This document shows positions 424 to 915 of a DNA stretch of 64,000 nucleotides, one piece after another (the first letter of the stretch is position 1; every line of letters begins with the position of its first letter). The notes beneath the pieces were generated by a model, which saw only the letters and a list, made by a program, of their open reading frames with translations, was not told where the DNA came from and searched no databases. A program made the translations under genes and the position numbers. The stretch is taken from NCBI GenBank assembly GCA_037783545.1, contig JBBELK010000563.1, forward strand, positions 1-64,000, in the 5' to 3' direction. The DNA comes from Henricia sp. BOLD:AAB3569. Taxonomy: Eukaryota; Echinodermata; Asteroidea; Spinulosida; Echinasteridae.

Positions 424-880
424 CCAGGAGCCAGACTGGTTAAGCCAAACAGACTGATTTTGTCATCTGGTTTGATCTTGTCATAATCATCTTGATTATC
501 AAAGGTGCTTACCGATCCAGGGGCCAGACTGGTTAAGCCAAGCAGACTGATTTTGTCATCTGGTTGGTTCTTATCATAATCAGCTGGGTTATCAAAGGTG
601 CTTATATCGATCCAGGGGCCAGACTGGTTAAGCCAAGCAGACCGATTTTGTCATCTGGTTTGATCTTGTCATAATCAGCTGGATTAGCAAAGGTCCTTAC
701 CGATCCAGGGGCCAGACTGGTTAAGCCAAACAGACTGATTTTGTCATCTGGTTTGATCTTGTCATAATCATCTTGATTATCAAAGGTGCTTACCGATCCA
801 GGGGCTAGACTGGTTAAGCCAAGCAGACCAATTTTGTCATCTGGTTGGACCTTGTCATAATCAGCTGGGTTATCAAAGGT
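424..880 (-). repeat. 93-bp tandem array duplicating an exon end and its splice donor
   Basis: There are five head-to-tail copies (minus-strand order): 880-794, 793-701, 700-608, 607-513 and 512-424. Each unit is about 84 bp of exon 20 (start TTTGAT, end CCTGGATCG) plus nine bases beginning with the donor GTAAGC. Copies 2 and 5 resemble each other, so copying was probably multi-step. Donors: GTAAGC after copy 1, GTAAGG after copy 2, lost after copy 3 (ATATAAGC, a 2-bp gain that puts a stop in frame), GTAAGC after copy 4, lost after copy 5 at a junction with a dispersed repeat. Confidence 0.92.
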
Positions 881-915
881 CAATGGCAACATCCCCTGCT
901 TCTTGAGGTTCGTTT
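794..915 (-). CDS. ACO2: ACO2 exon 20 (residues 688-728), canonical end
   Basis: 122 bp from the CTGCAG acceptor to the first GTAAGC donor. It encodes [14 protein letters not shown] and ends LAPGS in phase 0, which matches the vertebrate position just before the last exon. The same frame stays open past this donor into tandem copies 2 and 3, so a longer exon ending at 701 is possible and would add 31 residues. The last coding exon is not in the window. Confidence 0.88.

Follow-up and report, generated by a model that had tools for sequence, protein, structure and literature searches.

Comparable 5' splice sites that compete for one acceptor have been studied in minigenes. Among natural loci, the nearest known case to the one described here appears to be a variable-number tandem repeat (VNTR) in intron 18 of the human gene ABCA7, whose 25-bp unit includes the donor of exon 18 and is repeated about 12 to 427 times; the first donor is the canonical one, retention of one unit gives a minor isoform (2 +/- 1%), and skipping of exon 19 rises with array length (12-45% by tissue) (PMC5954066). 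Splice signals are also multiplied in intron gain by tandem duplication, where a new intron takes both its GT and its AG from the duplicated segment and where, in the potato case, the duplication also crosses an intron-exon boundary (PMC3443670). A natural pair of comparable donors competing for one acceptor occurs in exon 1 of oestrogen receptor alpha, and that paper states that the intron-proximal of two such donors is usually favoured, for a reason that is not known (PMC6002489, citing Roca 2013).

In this report, we describe, in a mitochondrial aconitase gene (ACO2), a tandem array whose unit joins the end of an exon to the splice donor that follows it. Like the ABCA7 VNTR, this is an intronic array whose unit carries a GT donor; its unit number differs between assembled copies (10 versus 11), which may be alleles or paralogs, and the ABCA7 VNTR may by analogy be regarded as a precedent for dominance of the first donor. 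Both arrays begin at the donor of an exon: in ABCA7 the unit starts at the donor itself, in ACO2 it starts 87 nt ahead of it, with a donor or a donor remnant in every full unit. In contrast to the 25-bp unit given for ABCA7, the ACO2 unit of 93 bp includes 87 exon nucleotides, so that the sequence preceding each later donor is almost that of the true donor, and the last donor is predicted to be stronger. Compared with intron gain, the ACO2 unit copies the donor, not the acceptor of the intron, and an existing intron would be lengthened. As in the oestrogen receptor alpha pair, comparable donors share one acceptor, but ACO2 has 9-11 strong sites in a repeated context, and its evolutionary evidence points toward the intron-distal site. 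In the open-licence literature searched, we found neither this array nor anything comparable in an aconitase gene.

The Aconitase Gene and the Array in the Window

The window, by which we mean the whole stretch of 64,000 nucleotides that was analysed, is contig C563:1-64000 of a 741-Mb assembly, and its base 1 is the contig end. The gene runs on the minus strand from 28507 to 794 in 19 exon blocks, chosen from the tblastn matches of five bacterial aconitases, and its last exon lies outside the window (Table 1). Pfam Aconitase and Aconitase_C were matched in two of the six window stretches scanned. The start of the array-bearing exon is set at 915 by the acceptor ctgcag/AAACG, and its 38 residues alone match pig mitochondrial aconitase by phmmer (E 1.8e-9). 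A 147-residue query made of exons 19 and 20, as numbered in the first-pass annotation, together with units 2-3 matched pig aconitase (PDB) at 4e-38, the exon 19+20 part alone aligning. By homology, the gene is mitochondrial aconitase, its C-terminal part included. The open frame at 605-1105 gave a single unrelated sub-threshold match in Pfam, and Rfam (at gathering scores) and ARAGORN each gave no hits on the window.

Table 1. Coordinates of the features discussed, in window positions; GT marks the position of the donor dinucleotide.
Feature	Position	Strand	Description and basis
Dispersed repeat	1..423	-	At contig end, joined to unit 5
Unit 5	424..506	-	83 bp, without donor, ends 10 nt early at dispersed repeat
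Unit 4	507..599	-	Donor gtaagc, GT at 512, out of frame, past the stop
Unit 3	600..694	-	95 bp; no donor (ATATAAGC); frame closed by TAA at 604-602
Unit 2	695..787	-	Donor gtaagg, GT at 700, in frame, stop-free
Unit 1	788..880	-	Coding copy: 87 exon nt and donor gtaagc, GT at 793
ACO2 exon ("exon 20" of the first-pass annotation)	794..915	-	122 nt, coding; phmmer, splice sites
Preceding ACO2 exon	1802..1939	-	Aconitase_C, Pfam E 3.8e-21 for 1799-1945
17 further ACO2 exon blocks	3553..28507	-	tblastn matches

Window positions 424-880 form a tandem array (period 93, score 749) of 4.9 copies with 90% matches, whose copies match one another by blastn with E as low as 8e-142, which excludes chance. 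The unit consists of the last 87 nt of the exon followed by the 6-nt donor gtaagc, and the array is a real minisatellite built from the end of an exon and its splice donor. The first-pass annotation had likewise recognised an aconitase exon, an identification that the match to the pig enzyme bears out, and had described a 93-bp unit present five times with 84 bp of exon in each; the period and the tandem arrangement stand, but there are four full units and one that is 10 nt short, and the exon portion measures 87 nt (87 + 6 = 93). Its account of copy 3, with a lost donor, a 2-bp gain and a stop, agrees with our own. It had also counted two donors giving in-frame products; those at 793 and 700 do lie in frame ahead of the stop, but the third intact donor, at 512, had been missed.

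Unit 5 has no donor because the junction with the dispersed repeat, at 423/424, cuts it. At 25060-25367, in a different intron of ACO2, lies a stretch with 86% similarity to this repeat over 312 nt, and the copies of the repeat other than that at 1-423 in the stretches examined represent one intron site in three versions. The copies at 1-423 and 25060-25423, about 86% alike, lie in opposite orientation, and no terminal inverted repeats were found on the repeat at 1-423. The junction may be a true insertion or deletion in the window version, or else a chimeric contig end. The last aconitase exon was also sought in 1-423 by tblastn with bacterial C-terminal tails, and this placement was rejected (best E in the window 0.20; 0 of 15 best matches within 1-423).

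Complete Arrays on Two Other Contigs

A search of the assembly for the array, in which three candidate contigs were scored and the counts are lower bounds, located at least two other contigs holding the whole array: C67 on the plus strand, with 10 units, and C1038 on the minus strand, with 11. Both arrays continue without the repeat found at 1-423 of the window. The exon bearing the array starts at 306891 in C67 and at 452747 in C1038; the equivalents of the window donor at 793 are C67:307013 and C1038:452625, and the window donor at 700 corresponds to C67:307106. Each complete array ends in a shortened 68-bp unit with the boundary TCG/gtaagt (C67:307827, C1038:451733), followed by an intron of 1,079 or 1,089 nt up to the last exon (C67:308906 onward). 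Since this terminal unit passes into the intron, the ancestral donor was probably gtaagt, and gtaagc would have arisen in the unit that was amplified. The array of the window is incomplete at the contig end and dispersed repeat, so that the locus would have at least five copies.

The last ACO2 exon was found on both of these contigs (QVTCQLTHSDGSSEQ...ILTGK-stop). In blocks of at least 500 nt and at least 85% identity, one block of 40,006 bp is 99.97% identical between C67 and C1038, and the other 11, which include the array side, reach 93-98%. The window and C67, compared in blocks of at least 400 nt and at least 85%, are 99.0% identical over the first 5.5 kb and 88-98% further on. Past about 32.2 kb, the window and the stretches examined (C67:241000-320800 and C1038:441000-515900) share a single match of at least 200 nt, a collinear 270-bp block at 35055-35309. 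The 690 codons in the 19 exon blocks have no gap in any of the three contigs, and differ between window and C67 at 14 synonymous and 5 nonsynonymous codons, and between window and C1038 at 14 and 6. In our reading, the assembly has been merged incompletely and the three contigs represent the same locus, of which the window would be a third version or a mosaic; they may instead be paralogs.

Several other repeats were observed in the window. Its otherwise unmatched part, 32200-64000, holds most of the long tandem arrays and points either to a mosaic contig or to an extensive structural difference. Very similar arrays with a unit of about 351 bp occur in three places (39091-39843, 41700-42440 and 53378-54125), and others with a unit of about 372 bp in two (45713-46627 and 50171-51052); arrays with a 56-bp unit, in both orientations as judged by their consensus units, occupy 57001-58617. 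A 16-bp minisatellite, GGACAACTCGCGCCCG, lies at 30605-30934 (20.6 copies, 97% matches), and an open frame of 184 residues at 23035-23586, without a Pfam match, is taken by us, by eye, to resemble a piece of a non-LTR retrotransposon.

Turnover of Units and Coding Constraint

Altogether 26 units (5 + 10 + 11) were compared. C67 and C1038 have the same unit 1, from which that of the window departs at two sites, and none of the three contigs has an indel in it. Among the 23 downstream units, eight depart in length from 93 bp (three of 95 bp, two of 68 bp, and one each of 92, 83 and 79 bp, the 83-bp unit being the one cut by the dispersed repeat in the window), and all eight shift the frame. The order of units is largely common to the three contigs, and C1038 has in addition a unit 2 resembling a fusion of units 2 and 3, a second copy like unit 6, and the 79-bp unit.

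Variable sites in the downstream units fall on codon positions 1, 2 and 3 in the ratio 5/8/5. Nonsynonymous and synonymous changes there number 13:5, as in the neutral expectation (p = 1.0), whereas the exons of the gene give 5:14 between window and C67 (p = 1e-4 versus neutral); the two sets differ by Fisher's test with p = 0.009 for the window-C67 exons and 0.022 for the window-C1038 exons (6:14), a contrast that amounts to moderate evidence because the counts come from variable columns, which lack independence when units are exchanged within an array, because the neutral fraction applied to the whole gene comes from a simulation of unit 1 alone, and because the exon set contains unit 1. The same test confined to the window gave no signal. 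An open frame through units 2 and 3 is retained in 73% of simulated neutral pairs, and their openness is therefore no evidence of coding. With moderate confidence, these sequence comparisons suggest that the downstream units are without coding constraint and vary like non-coding DNA.

Splice Donors of the Array

Predicted U1 pairing of the window donors at 793, 700 and 512 is -8.2, -8.7 and -8.2 kcal/mol, respectively, and within 1-1000 these are the three best-pairing sites of the minus strand, the next reaching -5.6. Among the gene's own donors they rank in the middle, in a ranking that is rough since one of the 18 listed donors (13480) is offset by one base and the donor of one exon is missing. 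The strongest predicted pairing in both complete arrays is that of the terminal gtaagt (-10.7), and unit 2 of C1038 ends in TCG/gtataa, for which pairing is weak (-4.4), although splicing there would still be in frame. Sites of -8.0 kcal/mol or stronger number 9 within about 0.94 kb in C67 and 11 within about 1.02 kb in C1038; the sense strand of the gene has 21 over 28 kb, a figure that includes the true donors. The suggestion that 5' splice sites have been duplicated and may compete thus holds for more sites than the first-pass annotation had noted. Most of them stand at unit ends (8 of 9 in C67, at 307013, 307106, 307294, 307387, 307480, 307573, 307666 and 307827; 9 of 11 in C1038), and the rest are mid-unit. 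These mid-unit sites, ATG/gtaaga (-8.0), arise from a GAC to GGT change and are found at C67:307418 (L088) and at C1038:452314 and 452221 (L090).

Donors 1 and 2 lie upstream of the stop in the window and in C67. In C1038 every strong donor beyond the first lies past a stop and the second donor is weak, so that donor 1 is the sole strong donor ahead of a stop there. Taken together, the frames and stops of the three contigs imply that the normal protein would come from donor 1 alone in all three. Splicing in silico from donor 1 continues the frame properly into the last exon (APGS/QVTC), and the resulting protein aligns without insertion with pig and bacterial aconitases (insertions of at most one residue in the bacterial set). 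The bacterial comparison kept 80 of 581 confirmed loci, in a capped list, 77 of which gave a protein, one of them incomplete (L059), and five of the 77 served to map the exons; none of the 76 measurable among these 77 aconitases shows more than a single inserted residue at the array stretch. RNA structure masking the later donors was considered and rejected: all three window donors are predicted to have very low accessibility, donor 1 the lowest, and folding therefore does not account for a choice of the first donor.

Interpretation and Alternative Explanations

Our preferred reading, to which we assign a probability of about 0.8 on the basis of sequence, is that of a minisatellite whose unit number differs between the assembled copies and which would be removed as intron from the first donor. 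A 93-bp stretch across an exon-intron boundary, with 87 nt from the end of the penultimate ACO2 exon and 6 nt from the start of the next intron, was tandemly duplicated and expanded into an array of about ten units, in numbers differing between the assembled copies, presumably through slippage or unequal exchange. Unit 1 would remain the coding end of the exon, and the anatomy of the last unit suggests that it keeps the probably original donor gtaagt and the original intron. With the first, intron-distal donor in use, everything after unit 1 would leave as intron in nearly all transcripts. The later donors, of comparable predicted U1 pairing, would be decoys giving probably only a low level of aberrant mRNA, with a premature stop or, from the second donor of the window and of C67, an insertion of 31 residues. 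Possible causes of such a choice are commitment before the array is transcribed and definition of a short exon, 122 nt long where the last donor would give 936 or 1,014 nt. What speaks against use of the first donor is that donors from the second onward have about the same predicted U1 pairing and that the last is stronger (-10.7); as preference for the intron-proximal site is usual, the intron-distal choice that we infer would be notable, being the opposite of expectation. Predicted folding, with donor 1 the least accessible of the three window donors, also speaks against it, as does the exon skipping that accompanies long arrays in ABCA7.

The first-pass annotation had proposed that splicing at the second donor would yield an aconitase with a 31-residue module in the swivel domain. 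In the window and C67 this donor is indeed intact, is predicted to pair slightly better with U1 (-8.7 vs -8.2), and lies in frame ahead of any stop. Nevertheless, we consider a real isoform of this kind very unlikely: the downstream units are neutral by their N:S ratio, their open frame is expected by chance, the second donor of C1038 is the weak gtataa, unit 2 has been swapped for a different unit type in each version, and neither the bacterial set nor the pig alignment has such an insertion. From these sequence data, the isoform is unlikely to matter.

A function for the donors themselves deserves comparison with the decoy reading. It is unlikely, in our view, that the array is a brake tuned by copy number, in which 8-9 strong unit-end donors would capture U1 and divert some transcripts to stop-containing mRNA, unit number would set aconitase output, and the first of about ten near-equal sites would mainly be used though the strongest is last. 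We give still less credence to sizeable use of later donors, with the stop-containing mRNA degraded and aconitase output lowered or tuned by unit number. Past a stop there are six further strong unit-end donors in C67 and eight in C1038, eight of the ten units of C67 and nine of the eleven of C1038 keep an intact donor, and under the 50-55-nt rule for stop-to-junction distance in mRNA decay the window stop, 89 nt before the junction at donor 512, is far enough upstream; recent homogenisation, however, can explain the persistence of later donors, and there is no sign of selection keeping them. That the array is partly an assembly artefact, or sits in non-functional extra gene copies, seems highly improbable. 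The window version does stop in a dispersed repeat right at the contig end, and three versions occur within one assembly, but the copies differ at many sites, their unit order is largely shared, and the gap-free codons with 14 synonymous and only 5-6 nonsynonymous differences argue against it; an artefact suits the junction at 423/424 only.

Significance of the Locus

A housekeeping gene that carries 9-11 strong donors, mostly in near-identical context, in arrays of differing length and with the strongest donor last, offers a natural test of donor position versus strength. If the preferred reading of a minisatellite removed from the first donor is right, the ACO2 locus would indicate that an exon boundary can become an intronic minisatellite without destroying an essential gene.
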